The notes below the pieces were generated by a model, which made no database searches, was not told the origin of the DNA, and saw only the letters and a list, made by a program, of their open reading frames with translations. This document shows, one piece after another, positions 8,916-35,185 of a DNA stretch of 35,378 nucleotides; positions within the stretch are counted from its first letter, which is position 1, and every line of letters begins with the position of its first letter. The stretch spans positions 1 through 35,378 of the forward strand of contig JACPAR010000017.1 in NCBI GenBank assembly GCA_016180725.1, written 5' to 3'. The DNA is from Candidatus Levyibacteriota bacterium (GTDB lineage Bacteria; Patescibacteriota; Microgenomatia; Levybacterales; UBA12049). The position numbers and the translations under genes are program-made.

Positions 8916-9566
8916 ATGCCTTCGCGAACTGTTCCATTTGTAAACGGAGAATATTACCATATATTTAATAGAGGCGTTGCAAAAATGCCCATCTTTAACA
9001 ATGCATTTGATTACAAGCGATTTATAAAAACCATACTCTACTATAAAATAGAAGGACCAAAGCCTAAACTTTCACGATTTTTATCTTCCAACATGGATTT
9101 AAGTAAAAAGAGCAAAATTGTTGATATTGTTTGCTATTGTCTTATGCCAAATCACTTCCACTTTCTGTTAAAACAAGTAAAAGATGGTGGCATTACCGAA
9201 TTTATAAGCAAGTTAAGTAATAGCTATACAAAATACATAAATACAAAAAATAATAGGGTTGGGCCACTCTTGCAAGGTGAATTTAAATCCGTATATGTAG
9301 AAGATAATAATCAGCTTCTTCATTTATCTCGATACATCCATCTAAATCCACTCGTTGGTTATATTGTAAAAGATTTAAACCTCTATAAATGGTCTTCTTA
9401 TTTCGAATACATAAACAAAGATGATACAGCGCTTTTTTCCAAAGATATTATTCTTGATCAATTCAAGTCTCCAAAAGAGTACCAACAGTTTGTACTAAAC
9501 CAAGAAGATTATGGAAAACAGTTGGAAATTATTAAACATCAACTCTTAGATTTCGAAAGCAATTAA
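8916..9566 (+). CDS. REP-associated tyrosine transposase-like protein (Y1_Tnp), RAYT-1
   Basis: YHIFNRGV near N-terminus, CYCLMPNHFHFLLKQ (HUH), YIHLNPL. Confidence 0.92.
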   Translation: MPSRTVPFVNGEYYHIFNRGVAKMPIFNNAFDYKRFIKTILYYKIEGPKPKLSRFLSSNMDLSKKSKIVDIVCYCLMPNHFHFLLKQVKDGGITEFISKLSNSYTKYINTKNNRVGPLLQGEFKSVYVEDNNQLLHLSRYIHLNPLVGYIVKDLNLYKWSSYFEYINKDDTALFSKDIILDQFKSPKEYQQFVLNQEDYGKQLEIIKHQLLDFESN

Positions 9567-12911: not shown

Positions 12912-13305
12912 TACTTATAATTCTTATAATAGTTATAATTGTTATATTCGAACACTTTTAGTGTTCGAATTATATTTAGAGAAAAGGGGCTGGGGAAAAC
13001 GCGAGTCGGCGTTAGGTTGAGCAAGCAAATAGGTTTTGTACCACACTATAAGTCTCATATCAAATTTTGCATCTTTTAAATGCTTCTGTTACAATCAGCC
13101 CATAGTGACAGCATTTTCTGCTGTCTTATATCTTGGACTTTCTTTGATTCACTCAATAAACTTTAATTGCTTAAGTTTACCCTGAGCGAACGAAGTCCTG
13201 AGAGAAATCGAAGGGTCGAAGACCCTGAGATGAACCGAAGGGCGAAGAGAGTCGAAGGGCACATTAAAAATTTGCTGTGAACACTTATTACAAACCTTCC
13301 TTTTT

Positions 13306-13455
13306 GGTGACTGCGGCCTTAAGGATAGTTCAGAGTTTAAAGTGCAAAGTTTAAAGTTAAAGAATATTTATATAAAATAAAGTACCTTCACTTTGAATTT
13401 TTAATCCGATTAAATCGGCTTTTAACTTTTAACTATCTTTTAGGCTGCAGTTACC
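13306..13455. repeat. Large imperfect inverted repeat at 5' edge of GC-rich island 1, containing an inverted partial R1 copy (13333-13436)
   Basis: Arms GGTGACTGCGGCCTTAAGGATAGTT (13306-13330) and AACTATCTTTTAGGCTGCAGTTACC (13431-13455). Confidence 0.75.
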
Positions 13456-13538
13456 GCTTAGAAAGGAGGCATTATTAGCGGAATTTCGTGGTCAAAGACT
13501 GCGAACTGCAAGCACCAACATCTCGCACCGGAGTCACC

Positions 13539-14033
13539 ATGAATTCTTATCTACGACGCAATGCGAGCACTCGATGGCAACTGGTCAGTCTACTTGAAAT
13601 GGTGATCGTGCCTACCGTATGGGCAATCCTCCACATCACCTTCGTGGAGCGATGGTCGGCAGGACTGAGCATGATCACCGTGCTGATCGCCACGCTGATC
13701 GCAATCTGCTTCAGCATCGGCGTCGACGACTATGATTACTTCTACGATAGATATACCCTTGGCGGGCAAATCTTCACGATAGCTCTCGTGCTCGTTCTGG
13801 GTATGATCGCCGGGTGGCTACTAAGTAACGCCGGTATCTGGCGACTCGTCGGTGCCTTCCTGGTGGGTCTTGAGAACGGGCTAGTGACGTCGTACTTCGC
13901 GGAGAAAAAACCGCGTGCACTACGGCGCTGGATCGGCTACCTAGCCTTTATTCCCATTATCTTTCTGGGAATAGTGGGAATAATTGAGATCCTTAGCTGG
14001 GCAGCCAGCACGGCCCGGACCATCATTGGCTGA
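13539..14033 (+). CDS. Island 1 ORF1: hypothetical multi-TM protein (MNSYLRR...)
   Basis: GGAG at 13530-13533 before ATG 13539; several hydrophobic segments. Confidence 0.6.
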   Translation: MNSYLRRNASTRWQLVSLLEMVIVPTVWAILHITFVERWSAGLSMITVLIATLIAICFSIGVDDYDYFYDRYTLGGQIFTIALVLVLGMIAGWLLSNAGIWRLVGAFLVGLENGLVTSYFAEKKPRALRRWIGYLAFIPIIFLGIVGIIEILSWAASTARTIIG

Positions 14034-14086
14034 TCGTTATTCGCCCGGCTCGCCTTTGGCGAGGACCGTTCACTCAAGGAGTTGGC

Positions 14087-14203
14087 ATGAGCGATCCGTT
14101 TTTCCCGGTTCTCTACCTTCTCGCCTGTGCCATCCTTATCGCCAGGGGCGATAAGCTGGCAGGCTGGATCCTTCGCAAGTTCAAGTTCACCAGACCACTC
14201 TGA
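14087..14203 (+). CDS. Island 1 ORF2: 38-aa single-TM protein MSDPFFPVLYLLACAILIARGDKLAGWILRKFKFTRPL
   Basis: AAGGAG upstream of ATG; hydrophobic segment plus basic C-terminus. Confidence 0.5.
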   Translation: MSDPFFPVLYLLACAILIARGDKLAGWILRKFKFTRPL

Positions 14204-14212
14204 GAGGGACGC

Positions 14213-14356
14213 ATGGAACCTTCCCTCGCGACACAAACTGTCTACGTCATGATCGCCGGAGCGTGTATAATCCTGGCCGTGCTGATCCTGATGGCAATTC
14301 TGATCGCCGTCAGGAAAATCAAGCCCCGACCGTTCTTTCCGAAGGAGAAACCATGA
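14213..14356 (+). CDS. Island 1 ORF3: 47-aa single-TM protein MEPSLATQTVYVMIAGACIILAVLILMAILIAVRKIKPRPFFPKEKP
   Basis: 9 nt after ORF2 stop with GAGAGGG upstream; stop overlaps the next start (ATGA). Confidence 0.55.
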   Translation: MEPSLATQTVYVMIAGACIILAVLILMAILIAVRKIKPRPFFPKEKP

Positions 14357-14457
14357 TGATCGACCCTACCCTCCTGCCGCTACTCGCCCTAAGCGCAGCA
14401 ATCCTGCTTGCAGTTCTAGCAGGGTGGCTGCTGAACAAGCTCCGGGGGCGCAGATGA
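14353..14457 (+). CDS. Island 1 ORF4: 34-aa single-TM protein MMIDPTLLPLLALSAAILLAVLAGWLLNKLRGRR
   Basis: AAGGAG upstream; ATGA overlaps at both ends. Confidence 0.55.
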   Translation: MMIDPTLLPLLALSAAILLAVLAGWLLNKLRGRR

Positions 14458-14648
14458 CCATTGTTCACCCGTGGATACTGTGGTGGACTCTGCCACTTCT
14501 CGTTTTAGCCGGCGCGTGCTGGCTCTGCGGGATGTTGATCGAGGCCAACACACCAGAAGAAAGCTCGAACCACAAGCTCTCGCTGTTCGATCGATGGGCC
14601 ATCGTGCTGGTCGTGGCAAGCCTCTTGCCCATCGCTATCTACATGTGA
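14454..14648 (+). CDS. Island 1 ORF5: 64-aa two-TM protein MTIVHPWILWWTLPLL...LPIAIYM
   Basis: ATGA overlap with ORF4 stop (14454-14457); two hydrophobic segments. Confidence 0.55.
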   Translation: MTIVHPWILWWTLPLLVLAGACWLCGMLIEANTPEESSNHKLSLFDRWAIVLVVASLLPIAIYM

Positions 14649-14738
14649 CCCTCGCTTCGCGGGGCAAACCTTACCGGCCCTGCCGGACGCAAAAGGTTCT
14701 GCTTTGCAGAAACGAGGACATCGAGTGTTCACAGCCCC

Positions 14739-14808
14739 GGTGTGGTGGCGCCAAGGACGGCAAGTCTTTCCGCTTCCGCGGAACTTGCTGTTACAGCGCC
14801 ACTACACC
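14739..14808. repeat. Terminal long hairpin of island 1
   Basis: GGTGTGGTGGCGC (14739-14751) / GCGCCACTACACC (14796-14808); internal GCAAG..TTCCGC/GCGGAA.CTTGC. Confidence 0.75.
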
Positions 14809-14951
14809 CCAACCCAATTTGAAACCAACATCACAATACAAACTAACTCCACATTAACCACTAAACCAAAAACAATCCATAAACATAATCTCGGCAATAT
14901 AATTTCTGCGTCTATCTGGCTAATCTGATCAGCCTTATCTGATTCTTCCTC

Positions 14952-14987
14952 TTGACTCCACTGGTACAATAGTTTAAACTAATAGAC
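14952..14987 (+). promoter_or_regulatory. Promoter with overlapping trp-operator-like palindrome upstream of the TrpR-like gene
   Basis: TTGACT-17-TAAACT; GTACAATAGTTTAAACTAATAGAC at 14964-14987. Confidence 0.65.
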
Positions 14988-14990
14988 TAT

Positions 14991-15449
14991 ATGACGAAAG
15001 TTTCTAAAAGGATACTAAACAAAACACTCGAAAACTACATCTTTGAACTATTTATACAAACCATCGCCAATTTAAAAGACAAAAATGAAATTCAAAATTT
15101 TATAAAAGACCTCCTCTCTCCACCAGAGCAGATTATGCTGGTAAAACGCCTTGCAATTGCTATTCTTCTTCAAAAAGGCTACACCTACACCCAAATAGAT
15201 AATACGCTAAAAGTTTCCCGCACTACTATTATGAATGTTTCTTACTGGTTAAAACATGGCAATAGCGGATATAATAAAGCAGTTGAAAAAGTAATGCAGA
15301 ATGTACGTAAAGAAGAATTTTTTGATGCAATAGAAGAAATATTACTGCAACTTACACCACCGAAACGGCTTGATAGTTACGCTTACGAGCAAAAACAAAA
15401 AGCTGGCAAAGCACTTTTTAAACGAAAAGCAAAAAGGGCGCTTCTCTAA
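14991..15449 (+). CDS. TrpR/YerC-YecD-like transcriptional regulator
   Basis: LLSPPEQIMLVKRLAIAILLQKGYTYTQIDNTLKVSRTTIMNVSYWLKHGNSGY, TrpR-superfamily helix-turn-helix. Confidence 0.85.
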   Translation: MTKVSKRILNKTLENYIFELFIQTIANLKDKNEIQNFIKDLLSPPEQIMLVKRLAIAILLQKGYTYTQIDNTLKVSRTTIMNVSYWLKHGNSGYNKAVEKVMQNVRKEEFFDAIEEILLQLTPPKRLDSYAYEQKQKAGKALFKRKAKRALL

Positions 15450-15476: not shown

Positions 15477-15500
15477 GTACAATAGTTTAAACTATTGTAC
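15477..15500. promoter_or_regulatory. Perfect 24-nt palindrome, candidate TrpR-like operator
   Basis: GTACAATAGTTTAAACTATTGTAC; matches the operator at 14964. Confidence 0.6.
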
Positions 15501-15642
15501 TAATAACACTTACTTCTGTAAGGTTTTGATTATGTTAAATTTTATTCATTTCTTTATTCAAATAGCACTTCTTTAAAAAGGAAACAAAAAGGCAAGCTTG
15601 CTTTTCTTGCTTTTTTAACTCTATAATCCCCTTAGTAATTCT

Positions 15643-15675
15643 AATTACAGATTATTTGCATATCTGTAATTTTTC
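15643..15675 (+). terminator. Hairpin followed by T-tract, probable terminator
   Basis: AATTACAGAT..ATCTGTAATTTTT. Confidence 0.55.
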
Positions 15676-15802
15676 ACTTATTTTTCTTCGACCTCTAGAG
15701 TAGACCTTATATTGCTTGGGTTTACCCTGAGCGAAGTTCTGCTCTGCAGAACGAGTCGAAGGGCTCTTTAATAATTTGGTCGGGATTTATTTTGATTATT
15801 TT

Positions 15803-15879
15803 GAATTTGGCCACATTCTTGCAGAGGAAGAATCTAATTTTTAATTCGTTTCCTACTCCGTAAGAACGTGGTCAAATTC
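15803..15879. repeat. Imperfect inverted repeat at 5' edge of GC-rich island 2
   Basis: Arms GAATTTGGCCACATTCTTGCAGAGGAAGAA (15803-15832) and TTCCTACTCCGTAAGAACGTGGTCAAATTC (15850-15879). Confidence 0.75.
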
Positions 15880-15897: not shown

Positions 15898-16107
15898 GTG
15901 GAGCCCATCAGGGATGTTCTGAGGAAATACCTTCTTCCGGCTGCGTTGCTGGCAACGCTCACCCTTTGGCTATCGGTTTCCTTCATGGAAACCACGCCTT
16001 TGGTAAAAGTGAGCTCTGCTCTTGGCAACACGGCAATGGTACTGGTCACAGGCGCCCTGGCGTGGCTTGCCAGATACCCTGACGGAGGTGATGCATGGAA
16101 ACCATAG
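15898..16107 (+). CDS. Island 2 ORF1: small membrane protein (GTG start)
   Basis: AAAGGAG upstream of GTG; two hydrophobic segments. Confidence 0.55.
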   Translation: MEPIRDVLRKYLLPAALLATLTLWLSVSFMETTPLVKVSSALGNTAMVLVTGALAWLARYPDGGDAWKP

Positions 16108-16235
16108 GGCAAATCCTCTACTATGTCGGGCTGGTCAGCGCCATCGGCGTTGTTGCCTCGGTAGCAAGGGAAACTAAACTACTGAGGAAACTGTTCACAC
16201 GACCTGCCAACCGGCTGCGTTCGCCGATAAGCTAA
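16095..16235 (+). CDS. Island 2 ORF2: 46-aa single-TM protein METIGQILYYVGLVSAIGVVASVARETKLLRKLFTRPANRLRSPIS
   Basis: GGAGGTG upstream; overlaps ORF1 end by 13 nt. Confidence 0.5.
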   Translation: METIGQILYYVGLVSAIGVVASVARETKLLRKLFTRPANRLRSPIS

Positions 16236-16306: not shown

Positions 16307-16648
16307 ATGGAATACGCTATCGCTTTTGCGATAAGTATGGCGTTCCCGTACATCGCCGCCGTAAGACGGTTTGGGCTGTTGGGATTTATCGCTGCAACGC
16401 TGGCAAGCGCGGCGATATGGTGGTTTGTAAAACCGCCACTGCTCACGGTAGTCGCGTTTCTGGTCGCCGTAGTAATAGGCGGCACGGTACCAATCCCCAA
16501 GGGCAAACTGGCAGCGATGATCATACCCTTCGCGTGGGGGGTGGCGATCATCCAGCTATCACCACTGATTAGTATGGCGCTGTTCGGGGTCGCTTGCCTA
16601 ACGGCACAGGCAGACTTCGATGATAAGCCGTCGTCGAACGTGGGTTGA
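16307..16648 (+). CDS. Island 2 ORF3: hypothetical multi-TM protein
   Basis: TTGGAGG before ATG; several hydrophobic helices. Confidence 0.6.
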   Translation: MEYAIAFAISMAFPYIAAVRRFGLLGFIAATLASAAIWWFVKPPLLTVVAFLVAVVIGGTVPIPKGKLAAMIIPFAWGVAIIQLSPLISMALFGVACLTAQADFDDKPSSNVG

Positions 16649-16689: not shown

Positions 16690-17013
16690 ATGGACACCAC
16701 TATAATCAACGCGGCCATCGCTGCAAGCGCAGTTATCGTCGGCGCCTGCGGCGGCCTGCTCATCATGTCGATCTTCGGACCTCGGATAATCCAAGAAACT
16801 GTCTTCCGCGGTGCACTCTGGGGTATCCTGATAAGCGGGATGGGCTCCCTAGTCATGTTTCTCGTCTTCAGGGTATCCTTCGGCCATGAGGTAGCAGGAT
16901 TCTTGGCTTTCGTGCTGGCAACAACATGTCTGGCCATGTTGATATCAATGATAATCGCCTGGCGGCGTGCTCACCAGCCCAATCCCGGCCAAGAAATTGG
17001 CCATTCAGGCTAA
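16690..17013 (+). CDS. Island 2 ORF4: hypothetical multi-TM protein
   Basis: AAGGAG before ATG; three hydrophobic helices. Confidence 0.6.
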   Translation: MDTTIINAAIAASAVIVGACGGLLIMSIFGPRIIQETVFRGALWGILISGMGSLVMFLVFRVSFGHEVAGFLAFVLATTCLAMLISMIIAWRRAHQPNPGQEIGHSG

Positions 17014-17029: not shown

Positions 17030-17083
17030 GGTGTGGTGGTGCTCGACAATCGTCGATCTGCTCAACTCCGAGCACCACCACCC
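17030..17083. repeat. Terminal long hairpin of island 2
   Basis: GGTGTGGTGGTGCTCG (17030-17045) / CGAGCACCACCACCC (17069-17083). Confidence 0.75.
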
Positions 17084-17216
17084 GTCCCATCTTAATAATT
17101 AAATACTTAAGCAATATTACTACCTGCACCACATGTCTTACATTTAACCTGCTATAACAATCTAATCTTAAAAACAAAATTTGTTTTTTTTCGTAAACTC
17201 ATCTATAATCCGTAGC

Positions 17217-18386
17217 ATGACAGTAGAAGCAAGATTATTACCACAAGAAGCCGCAATTAGCACAAACGGGCGGGTAATAAGACCCAAGCCCAATGGTCCT
17301 ACAGACCCTACTGAAATTTATTATGAAGAGATAGGCCAAATAGAACTATTGTCTAAAGCAGAAGAAGTGTATTTAGCAGAAAAAATGCAAATGGGAAGAG
17401 CTGCTTTGGAAATTGTAAATCGTGCCTCTCCAATAAATATTAAACCACCTTTTATTGCATGCCGTCTAACTCGGCCTACTTCACAAAAGTTTTTACAGGA
17501 AACTGGTCTGTCTTTCTGTTTAGCGCCTGTTATTAGAGCAAATTCTAAAACAAAAGAAGAAATTGTATGGGGCTACCAAGTTATATCTCTCATTCCTCAA
17601 TACAAAAGAGACGATCCGGCATTACATGAGATTATAAAACGTGGCAAAGAGGCAGAACAAAAGTTTATCGAAGCTAATCTTCGTCTTGTAGTTCATGTAG
17701 CTAAAAAAAATTACATAGGACGTGGCCTAGACCTGCCTGATTTAACTCAGGAGGGAAATCAAGGACTGATGAAGGCAGTTGGAAACTTTGAGTGGTGGAG
17801 AGGAGTTAAATTTTCTTCTCATGCAACGTGGTGGATTAAACAAGCTATTGGAAGAGCAATCGATAACCAATCAAGGATTGTTAGGCTTCCTGTACACGTA
17901 ATTGCATCTATGAAGGATGTTTTAAGAGCAGTCGAAGAACTTACCCAAGAATTAGAACGTGATCCAACAAATGAAGAACTAGCTGCTAAGCTTGATATTT
18001 CACTTAAAAAAGCCGAAGACATCAGAAGACAACTAAGAAACGAGAGAGTTCTTAGTCTTAACGCGCCTGTTGAAGACGAGGAGGGTGCAACAAATACAAC
18101 ATTGGCAGATTTACTCAAAGATTCAAACGCAGAAGATCCGGCTGGAGCTGCAATTAAACAACTCTTGCATAAAGCCGTTGGGGATGTACTAGACAGCCTT
18201 ACTCCTCGTGAAAGAATGATTCTTGAGCTTCGATTCGGATTGAATGACGGAAGACAAAGAACACTTGAGGAAGTTGGATGTGAATTTGGATTAACTCGGG
18301 AAAGAGTTAGGCAAATCGAGGCAAAAGCGCTAACAAAACTTCGACAGCCGGTACGAGCCAGAGAACTTGCGTCCTACCTTGAATAA
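17217..18386 (+). CDS. RNA polymerase sigma-70 family factor (start trimmed to MTVEARLL)
   Basis: NLRLVVHVAKKNYIGRGLDLPDLTQEGNQGLMKAV, WWIKQAIGRAIDNQSR, TPRERMILELRFGL..LEEVGCEFGLTRERVRQIEAKALTKLR. Confidence 0.93.
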   Translation: MTVEARLLPQEAAISTNGRVIRPKPNGPTDPTEIYYEEIGQIELLSKAEEVYLAEKMQMGRAALEIVNRASPINIKPPFIACRLTRPTSQKFLQETGLSFCLAPVIRANSKTKEEIVWGYQVISLIPQYKRDDPALHEIIKRGKEAEQKFIEANLRLVVHVAKKNYIGRGLDLPDLTQEGNQGLMKAVGNFEWWRGVKFSSHATWWIKQAIGRAIDNQSRIVRLPVHVIASMKDVLRAVEELTQELERDPTNEELAAKLDISLKKAEDIRRQLRNERVLSLNAPVEDEEGATNTTLADLLKDSNAEDPAGAAIKQLLHKAVGDVLDSLTPRERMILELRFGLNDGRQRTLEEVGCEFGLTRERVRQIEAKALTKLRQPVRARELASYLE

Positions 18387-21804: not shown

Positions 21805-22488
21805 ATGCCTTCGCGCAACTCCCGAAAAATATACCAGGAAAATAGTTATTACCATTTGTATAACCGAGGTGTTGAGAAAAGAAGAATCTTTCTCGACCAA
21901 CAGGATTATGCCGTATTTCTATCTTACCTAAAAGAATATCTTTTGCCTAAAGATGAAAAATCTTTGCAAAAAAGATTATCCGATCCTTTAACACCTTCCC
22001 ATGAAAAAGATAAAATTCTTAAATCACTCCGCCTCAACAATTTCTCAAATGACATCATACTACTCGCCTATTGCCTCATGCCGAATCACTTTCATTTTTT
22101 CGTTAAACAAAGGAGTTCTAATGCAATTGACACGCTGATGAACTCGCTCGGCACCAGATATACTATGTACTTTAATAACAAATATAAACGCGTCGGAACA
22201 TTGTACGAAGGTACATACAAAGCTGTTCAGGTTAACAATGAAAGTCAGTTTATCTACCTATCGAAATACATCCATAAACAAGCATTAGCCTTGCAAGGCG
22301 ACGCCTTGCAGGCTCAACCGACGTCGTATGATGACTATTTGGGAAAAAGACAAACCGATTGGGTTAAACCAACAGAAGTTTTATCTTACTTTTCTAAAAA
22401 CAACGCCTCCCTTACTTACCAATCTTTTGTAGAAGAATTAGATGATCTTGCAGACATTCAAGACATCCAGCTAGACAAAGATTTTTAG
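21805..22488 (+). CDS. REP-associated tyrosine transposase-like protein (Y1_Tnp), RAYT-2
   Basis: YYHLYNRGVEKRRIF, AYCLMPNHFHFFVKQ (HUH), KYIHKQAL. Confidence 0.92.
   Translation: MPSRNSRKIYQENSYYHLYNRGVEKRRIFLDQQDYAVFLSYLKEYLLPKDEKSLQKRLSDPLTPSHEKDKILKSLRLNNFSNDIILLAYCLMPNHFHFFVKQRSSNAIDTLMNSLGTRYTMYFNNKYKRVGTLYEGTYKAVQVNNESQFIYLSKYIHKQALALQGDALQAQPTSYDDYLGKRQTDWVKPTEVLSYFSKNNASLTYQSFVEELDDLADIQDIQLDKDF
22292..22310. repeat. REP-like hairpin inside RAYT-2 CDS
   Basis: TGCAAGGCGACGCCTTGCA identical to 21756-21774. Confidence 0.85.
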
Positions 22489-33594: not shown

Positions 33595-34167
33595 GCGGTT
33601 TTGGAAACTCCTGAACGAATACGCCAAAACTAAAGAAAAACTAAAAGACGAGTACCACCCATTCTACAAACTCAGGGTCAGCAAGTACCACGGATACCAA
33701 TTCTCCCCGTGATACGCGTGATACCCTTGATACCCTTGATACCCGTGGTACTCTTACCAGTGTCTCATAGTCTTTTGACTTCCTCTCTCCTTTTTGCTAA
33801 GATCAATTTCCTGCTTTTGCAGAGCAACAAAAAAACAACCCCAGGCGCTTTGCTTGCCTGTGGTTTGTTAAGTTATTAAAATATTCTGCAAGCAGAACTT
33901 GCTCTTTAACAAGATGCGATGAGTCCTGCACCTAAGTGGTGCGGGATCTATTCATAACAGCAAGTAGGTGGAGCATTGCATATCAATAGCAAAAATTAAA
34001 TATTAAATAGCAAATATACATTGTAAATTTAAAATATTTGATTTTTGATATTTTATATCTTAATTGGCATGCAGTGTTCAGTTTATTGGTTGGGCCGGAG
34101 CAATCTTGCTCCTGTCCTGGATCGCCGCGGCTGGCATCAATCGCAGAAGTGAATAAGGAGAAAAAAC

Positions 34168-34488
34168 ATGCCAAAAACACTAGGCTCGATAGCCACAAGA
34201 GATGTCCGACAGGTAATTAAAGTTGGACCTAGGCGGCTGCATCTGCAGTCTTCCGAGGGGGGTTCAACGGCTTCCTTCCTGGCCTACGCCGATAGCACCG
34301 GCCCCATCAGCGTGGCCAAAGTCTGCGAAAACGGACATGTATCGTTAAAGTTCTGCGTTCATGTCGGAGACAGGAGGTTCCCCAGCGATCCCACCTATGG
34401 AGTAGCTCAACTACCCCGTCGGGCACTTCGCATGAAGGCTACTCTGACCATCGTGTCTCACGACACAGCAGAGGAGCCTGCAAGCTAG
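34168..34488 (+). CDS. Island 3 ORF1: hypothetical soluble protein
   Basis: AAGGAG before ATG; GC-rich, codon usage unlike neighbours. Confidence 0.55.
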   Translation: MPKTLGSIATRDVRQVIKVGPRRLHLQSSEGGSTASFLAYADSTGPISVAKVCENGHVSLKFCVHVGDRRFPSDPTYGVAQLPRRALRMKATLTIVSHDTAEEPAS

Positions 34489-34540: not shown

Positions 34541-34864
34541 ATGCTCATAGAAACTGTCCGCTGTGATCAATTCACTGCGGAGGTACAGCAAGGATTAAAC
34601 AAGCACGGTCGGCCCATCCTCAAGGTGGTTTTCCGGCAAGATAACCGCTGCATTTGCGAATGGTATACCGGCTATAAGCTGGAACCTTCCGATGCAACGG
34701 CTCTTATGATAATCATCCAGCAGAGGGTGTTCGACTGCCCCGACGACGACTACGCCCGGGCCAATCTGGTGCCGTTCGCGCGCAAGATCCTGACTGTTTT
34801 GGTTCGGGTCAAAGAGTTTGAGCGACTCGGCTTCCTAAACCTGGAGGAATTCTGGAAGGTGTGA
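34541..34864 (+). CDS. Island 3 ORF2: hypothetical soluble protein (MLIETVRCDQF...)
   Basis: TTGGAGGAG before ATG 34541. Confidence 0.6.
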   Translation: MLIETVRCDQFTAEVQQGLNKHGRPILKVVFRQDNRCICEWYTGYKLEPSDATALMIIIQQRVFDCPDDDYARANLVPFARKILTVLVRVKEFERLGFLNLEEFWKV

Positions 34865-35072: not shown

Positions 35073-35185
35073 GATACGTGAGGGGAGAAAATTCAAAAAA
35101 GGGGTTTGTCTGGCGCCGCGCCGACACGCTGTGGCGCCTACGGCACCACCCCTTTTGCGAAATTTCGCTACCACCCTCACGTATC
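35073..35185. repeat. Large nested inverted repeat at the end of island 3
   Basis: GATACGTGAGGG (35073-35084)/CCCTCACGTATC (35174-35185); AAAAGGGGT/ACCCCTTTT and GGCGCC/GGCGCC nested inside. Confidence 0.8.

Follow-up and report, generated by a model that had tools for sequence, protein, structure and literature searches.

How does a strongly AT-rich genome come to hold a short, GC-rich block of tiny membrane-protein genes, and how would such foreign-looking DNA be expressed? This question was raised by a locus within a window of 35,378 nucleotides (the whole stretch of DNA that was analyzed) from a Levybacteria-like Microgenomates (Patescibacteria) genome, in which an abrupt shift from AT-rich to GC-rich DNA had been proposed. 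The shift was confirmed: GC content per 1 kb climbs from 0.38 to 0.55 and then returns, the block (island 1) having a GC content of ~0.55 vs. a genome mean of 0.365. GC3 of its ORFs is 0.64-0.74, compared with 0.287 +/- 0.047 (sd) and a maximum of 0.453 in the host (n = 459 ORFs >600 nt). Island composition is far outside that of host genes, as for horizontally acquired DNA, and the high GC3 is what genes from a GC-richer source are expected to show. Stretches exceeding 50% GC in the host (758 kb of the 768.6 kb genome) are mainly rRNA and five islands, three of which lie in the window, plus a few more short stretches.

Island 1 carries five intact plus-strand frames, all hydrophobic as originally described, of 164, 38, 47, 34 and 64 aa (about 165 aa had been given for the first). 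ORF1 (13539-14033) encodes an orphan protein with 4-5 TM segments, which would be 181 aa long if translated from a GTG at 13488; ORF2 (14087-14203), ORF3 (14213-14356) and ORF4 (14353-14457) encode peptides with one TM and a basic C-terminus, and ORF5 (14454-14648) a product with 2 TM. Counting Kyte-Doolittle peaks gave 4 TM for ORF1, 1 each for ORF2-4, in agreement with their earlier description, and 2 for ORF5. The ATGA overlaps said to join the last three ORFs are exact, at 14353-14356 and 14454-14457. Shine-Dalgarno sequences, described as strong, mostly are: AAGGAG precedes ORF2 and ORF4, GGAG ORF1 and GAGAGGG ORF3, but a good one is missing 5' of ORF5, whose translation start for this reason presumably relies on coupling to ORF4. 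Four ORFs having a Shine-Dalgarno sequence, an ATG and a TM segment were counted in island 1, against a maximum of 1 when the entire island was dinucleotide-shuffled 2000 times; none was found on its minus strand. The idea that the islands are structured RNAs was also tried and rejected: the mean folding z of their interiors, about -0.7 to -1.5, is close to that of an aldolase gene in the island of a relative (-0.8, locus L155), and codon periodicity is clear, for which reasons coding is preferred. No Rfam match was obtained, and a genome-wide scan of local folding did not discriminate. True coding, translational coupling and foreign composition are thus supported for island 1.

The absence of a recognized family held up, since the island proteins gave no significant match in Pfam, PHROGs, NCBIfam, PADLOC, phages, plasmids, IMG/VR, GTDB contigs (a scan that detects close relatives only) or related genomes. 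For ORF1 there were no relatives in 100 related genomes and two insignificant matches in nine named relatives, none in IMG/VR, GTDB contigs, plasmids or phages (INPHARED), and only insignificant matches in profile libraries; a single protein from island 2 and another from island 3 likewise had no relatives in 289 genomes of the class. Single-sequence AlphaFold models of ORF1 (5 helices, low confidence, pLDDT 62) and of ORF2 from island 3 (pLDDT 57) were, at these values, too poor for fold searches. Two of the functions first suggested, a toxin or holin module and phage or conjugative cargo, found no backing here, with no match in PHROGs, phages, plasmids, IMG/VR or PADLOC. Inside the islands we detected no phage hallmark gene or phage homologue, no replication, capsid or secretion gene and no Zot gene, and no match to a curated toxin-antitoxin or defence family (Pfam, NCBIfam, PADLOC). 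No integron integrase adjoins the islands, the sole tyrosine recombinase found being on another contig, and the RYYYAAC/GTTRRRY arrangement (attC) was not seen in the 3' hairpins on inspection by eye.

The most informative part of the locus was missed by the original prediction, and is the rRNA-like leader upstream of 13306. The GC-rich block given as 13306-14810 is real, but the leader reaches about 240 nt further left, to a predicted promoter at 13066. Left of it lies a VirD4/TraG-like gene, conserved in Microgenomates, which is probably a separate transcription unit because a hairpin with a T-containing tail follows it (12946-12970). The unit of island 1 appears to start near 13066, with a putative sigma-70 promoter on the plus strand (13066-13095, TTTGCA-18-TACAAT with an extended -10 TG) that matches the consensus, such matches being no commoner across the region than in shuffles. 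Downstream on the same strand come a terminator-like hairpin (13107-13125), also found at the same place in the host rrn leader, the boxB-like part of an rRNA-leader module, a GTTTACCCTGA...GAAGGG hairpin (13175-13258), and the boxA variant GCACATTAAAAATT (13259-13272), which is not the exact consensus and gains plausibility as a boxA from the form GCACATTAACAAATT found in the 16S leader of another genome (G068). A long left hairpin (13306-13455, no strand assigned) follows, its loop containing an AT-rich host dispersed repeat; this hairpin element (AGTTCAAAGTTTAAAGTGCAAAG...AAAGTACCTTCACTTT) is present at 13326-13405 and in about 17 other places of the genome, often just 5' of gene starts.

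The upstream DNA common to islands 1 and 2 is non-random and corresponds to the leader that precedes 16S rRNA in the host itself. The module consists of GTTTACCCTGA, a hairpin closed by CCCT/AGGG and then GGGCnCnTTAAnAA (boxA); it reads GTTTACCCTGAAGCTGTAAAGCTGAAGGGCTCTTTAACAATT in the host rRNA leader and GTTTACCCTGAGCGAAGTTCTGCTCTGCAGAACGAGTCGAAGGGCTCTTTAATAATT in island 2, and in island 1 has the same ends as the host module, while its middle is longer and its boxA is the variant GGGCACATTAAAAATT. Leaders of both islands are near-identical in sequence to the host 16S leader and, like it, have the hairpin before boxA. When 2.0 Mb were scanned (own genome, complete relative G006 and related loci), GTTTACC[CT]-N-GGGCnCnTTAAnAA sites were found only in 16S leaders (own genome and G020), in a G009 copy on a contig that stops short of any 16S gene, and ahead of islands 1 and 2. 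The leaders of islands 1 and 2 show strong homology to rRNA leaders. Both NusB and Rho are encoded in the genome, and no leader-trailer helix like that of 16S precursors rose above shuffles. As a separate observation, 16S leaders of the family (L045:1060-1260 on the minus strand, L217 and L219) carry an intrinsic-terminator-like hairpin, CCCGCC...GGCGGG plus a T run, between promoter and boxA.

The islands had been delimited on composition before any search for boxA. The motif GCTCTTTAA[CT]AA occurs 5 times in the own genome vs. 0.8 expected by chance, namely in the 16S leader, in the leaders of islands 2 and 3, once within a long open frame and once ~40 nt 5' of a gene for an exported protein; we estimated at about 2e-5 the chance that two of the four non-rRNA sites fall <=500 nt upstream of one of five islands. 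For KGCTCTTTAACAA there were 21 sites in 62 family genomes vs. 6 for the backwards control, the explained ones either preceding 16S rRNA, 23S rRNA, island 3 or the GC-rich island of another Levybacteria genome (G018, locus L154) or lying in a tmRNA, and the remaining ones being mostly in AT-rich DNA. BoxA is thus exact in islands 2 and 3 and in the G018 island and a variant in island 1; island 4 is without a clear boxA, and the leader of island 5 falls off the contig. Related loci L153 and L155 have boxA-like variants at the same place, a weaker, post hoc observation. From boxA to the first start codon there are about 265 nt in island 1, 122 nt in island 2 and 255 nt in island 3. The boxA-like GCTCTTTAATAA at L021:8714-8725 (minus strand), ~40 nt 5' of an AT-rich exported-protein gene, may reflect Nus regulation or chance.

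Island 2 (about 15.6-17.1 kb) adds four TM proteins. Its plus-strand leader comprises a putative promoter (15598-15627, TTGCTT-18-TATAAT), a terminator-like hairpin (15644-15674) and the rRNA-leader module (15720-15776, GTTTACCCTGA-hairpin-GGGCTCTTTAATAATT, boxA at 15763), and is followed by a left hairpin (15803-15879, no strand assigned), by ORF1 (15898-16107, 69 aa, GTG start, TM), ORF2 (16095-16235, 46 aa, TM), ORF3 (16307-16648, 113 aa, 3 TM) and ORF4 (16690-17013, 107 aa, 3 TM, orphan), all on the plus strand, and by a plus-strand 3' hairpin (17030-17083). Island 3 (about 33.8-35.2 kb), also on the plus strand, encodes two soluble orphans, ORF1 (34168-34488, 106 aa) and ORF2 (34541-34864, 107 aa), preceded by a putative promoter (33775-33803, TTGACT-17-TAAGAT) and an exact boxA (GCTCTTTAACAA, 33901-33912) and followed by a 3' hairpin (35073-35185). 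Islands 4 and 5 are on contigs C20 (22.3-23.3 kb) and C8 (4.5-5.4 kb), respectively. Two neighbouring genes deserve separate mention. At the gene of a YerC/TrpR-like regulator (14991-15449), a perfect 18-nt inverted repeat, GTACAATAGTTTAAACTA, occurs twice, once in the promoter region (14964-14981) and once just 3' of the gene (15483-15500), and is likely an autoregulatory operator; synteny via this gene was tried and discarded, its relatives sitting elsewhere. Directly after island 2, at 17208-18383, a second sigma-70 factor is encoded, which shares only about 52% identity with the housekeeping factor on contig C12.

Relatives of the VirD4-like gene show 87%, 81% and 72% identity in Candidatus Levyibacteriota/Levybacteria and about 69% in Roizmanbacteria, and several of the contigs bearing it also bear GC-rich islands. 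In L155 (4520-5730) the cargo is a class I fructose-bisphosphate aldolase, in the same layout and directly 3' of the VirD4-like gene; in L153 it is two tiny TM proteins just upstream of rplJ, in L154 an exported protein, and in L157 and L159 one-TM exported proteins. In L153 the content of the interval from VirD4 to rplJ differs and no clean empty site was seen; the donor of the islands was not found. A composition scan of G006 gave no such GC-rich island. Turnover of the islands was seen only as absence from relatives. In the two Roizmanbacteria genomes a 140-nt leader (79% identical, L157:1380-1525 and L159:3160-3320) without an Rfam match stands before fast-diverging exported proteins; we considered it as a mobile leader and rejected this, since it is single copy in each genome and thus represents an orthologous locus.

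At its 3' end island 1 has a GC-rich hairpin on the plus strand (GGTGTGGTGGCGC...GCGCCACTACACC, 14739-14808, z -5.1). All seven island 3' ends tested, those of relatives included, fold at z <= -4.5, whereas among 42 host 3' ends about 10% fall below z -4. The long left (5') hairpin is less distinctive, as host intergenic DNA often folds.

We consider it probable, from the sequence features described, that island 1 is an accessory, likely acquired operon of small membrane proteins transcribed with rRNA-type Nus/boxA antitermination. The same leader could instead serve to keep the island down, with Nus at boxA reducing translation, bringing Rho termination and silencing costly foreign membrane proteins. 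In favour of this, overproduced membrane peptides can be toxic. Repression of this kind is published for E. coli suhB, and Nus factors also target a ParE-like toxin gene in Citrobacter koseri (PMC5725501); however, the published repressing boxA is <~50 nt from the start codon, closer than in islands 1 to 3, and islands 1 and 2 keep the whole rRNA-leader order, leaving repression unlikely, if the least so of the alternatives. An early operon of a phage or satellite, with boxA as a nut-like site and tiny TM proteins for lysis, exclusion or a coat-like role, is a less probable origin still. Lambdoid phages do have nut sites with a boxA ahead of series of tiny genes, and single-TM peptides with basic C-termini resemble the minor or major coat proteins of filamentous phages. 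But the searches reported above gave no PHROG, INPHARED or IMG/VR relative, and the islands showed neither Zot nor replication nor capsid genes. The leader module is absent from viral contigs, the four matches to a looser pattern there looking like chance, and the leader resembles the host's own 16S leader.

Two further explanations concern how the islands got there. They may be hairpin-bounded mobile cassettes mobilized in trans by the window's REP-type Y1 (HUH) transposases, and indeed there are hairpins at both ends, the cargo differs in relatives (class I aldolase in L155, TM peptides in L153) and two such transposase genes (8916-9566 and 21805-22488, below the NCBIfam cut-off) flank the island region; the end hairpins, however, lack sequence conservation, host intergenic DNA commonly has long 5' hairpins and no target-site signature was found, so we regard this as improbable, to the same degree as a phage origin. 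An assembly or binning artefact, in which the contig had taken in GC-rich DNA from a different organism, would account for the abrupt change of composition and for the lack of relatives, and a chimeric contig had been named as what would overturn the original prediction. Yet three islands lie on one contig, each after host-type leader DNA; rRNA-leader DNA of host type abuts islands 1 and 2, and the same layout is met in independent assemblies of other species. A chimera is unlikely because island-like units recur there with different cargo, and of all alternatives an artefact is the one to which we give the least credence.

Under antitermination of rRNA type, island 1 would work as its own unit: a sigma-70 promoter (about 13066), an early hairpin, the CCCT...AGGG hairpin, boxA, the long hairpin, the ORFs and the 3' GC-rich hairpin. 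NusB/S10 would bind boxA in the nascent RNA and modify RNA polymerase, making it resistant to Rho and to pausing as it crosses DNA that is rich in GC and hairpins and poorly adapted to the host. The foreign operon would then be transcribed in full, as full-length messages. Coupled translation could yield the peptides in a fixed ratio, perhaps for one membrane complex, although a small complex of ORF1-5 is a guess that we would not expect to hold. Nus recruitment, antitermination, promoter use, acquisition and complex formation are what we infer from this arrangement.

Islands 1 and 2 share with rRNA operon leaders (boxB/boxA, Nus complex) the order of promoter, hairpin, CCCT...AGGG hairpin and boxA; what lies 3' differs, being 16S rRNA in one case and foreign-looking genes of small membrane proteins in the other. 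BoxA is likewise known in the 5' region of protein genes (suhB, prsA, rpsJ and a ParE-like toxin gene), where close to a gene it can repress (Baniulyte et al. 2017, PMC5725501); those sites are near the start codon and repress suhB, whereas in the islands boxA is 120-265 nt upstream, within an rRNA-like leader and linked to GC-rich accessory DNA. CRISPR-array leaders also have boxA (Stringer et al., as cited in PMC7862264) and, going by that citing account, resemble the islands in having it on a non-rRNA transcript otherwise cut short, but the arrays are untranslated and the islands coding. Genomic islands of Patescibacteria (PMC12455944) are similarly compositionally foreign DNA in a reduced genome; the passages considered deal with general HGT and a restriction-modification island and describe no rRNA-type leader, which islands 1 and 2 here have. 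A limited literature search found no paper on antitermination leaders in Patescibacteria. For this reason the complete rRNA-like leader on GC-rich orphan operons appears to be new, boxA beyond rRNA being already known.

In bacteria, as established for model species, Rho commonly ends transcription early on poorly translated foreign DNA. We tentatively propose, as a possibility well short of even, that Microgenomates have a general route by which accessory cassettes of orphan membrane or exported proteins carry a copy of the rRNA leader and are shielded from Rho by the Nus complex. If true, this would be a counter to Rho-based silencing of foreign genes, with expression tied to that of rRNA, and would illustrate how new GC-rich genes can be expressed in a streamlined symbiont. 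A boxA plus hairpin followed by a GC-rich stretch would then offer a simple sequence handle with which such genes could be sought across the thousands of Patescibacteria genomes that hold accessory proteins without homologues.
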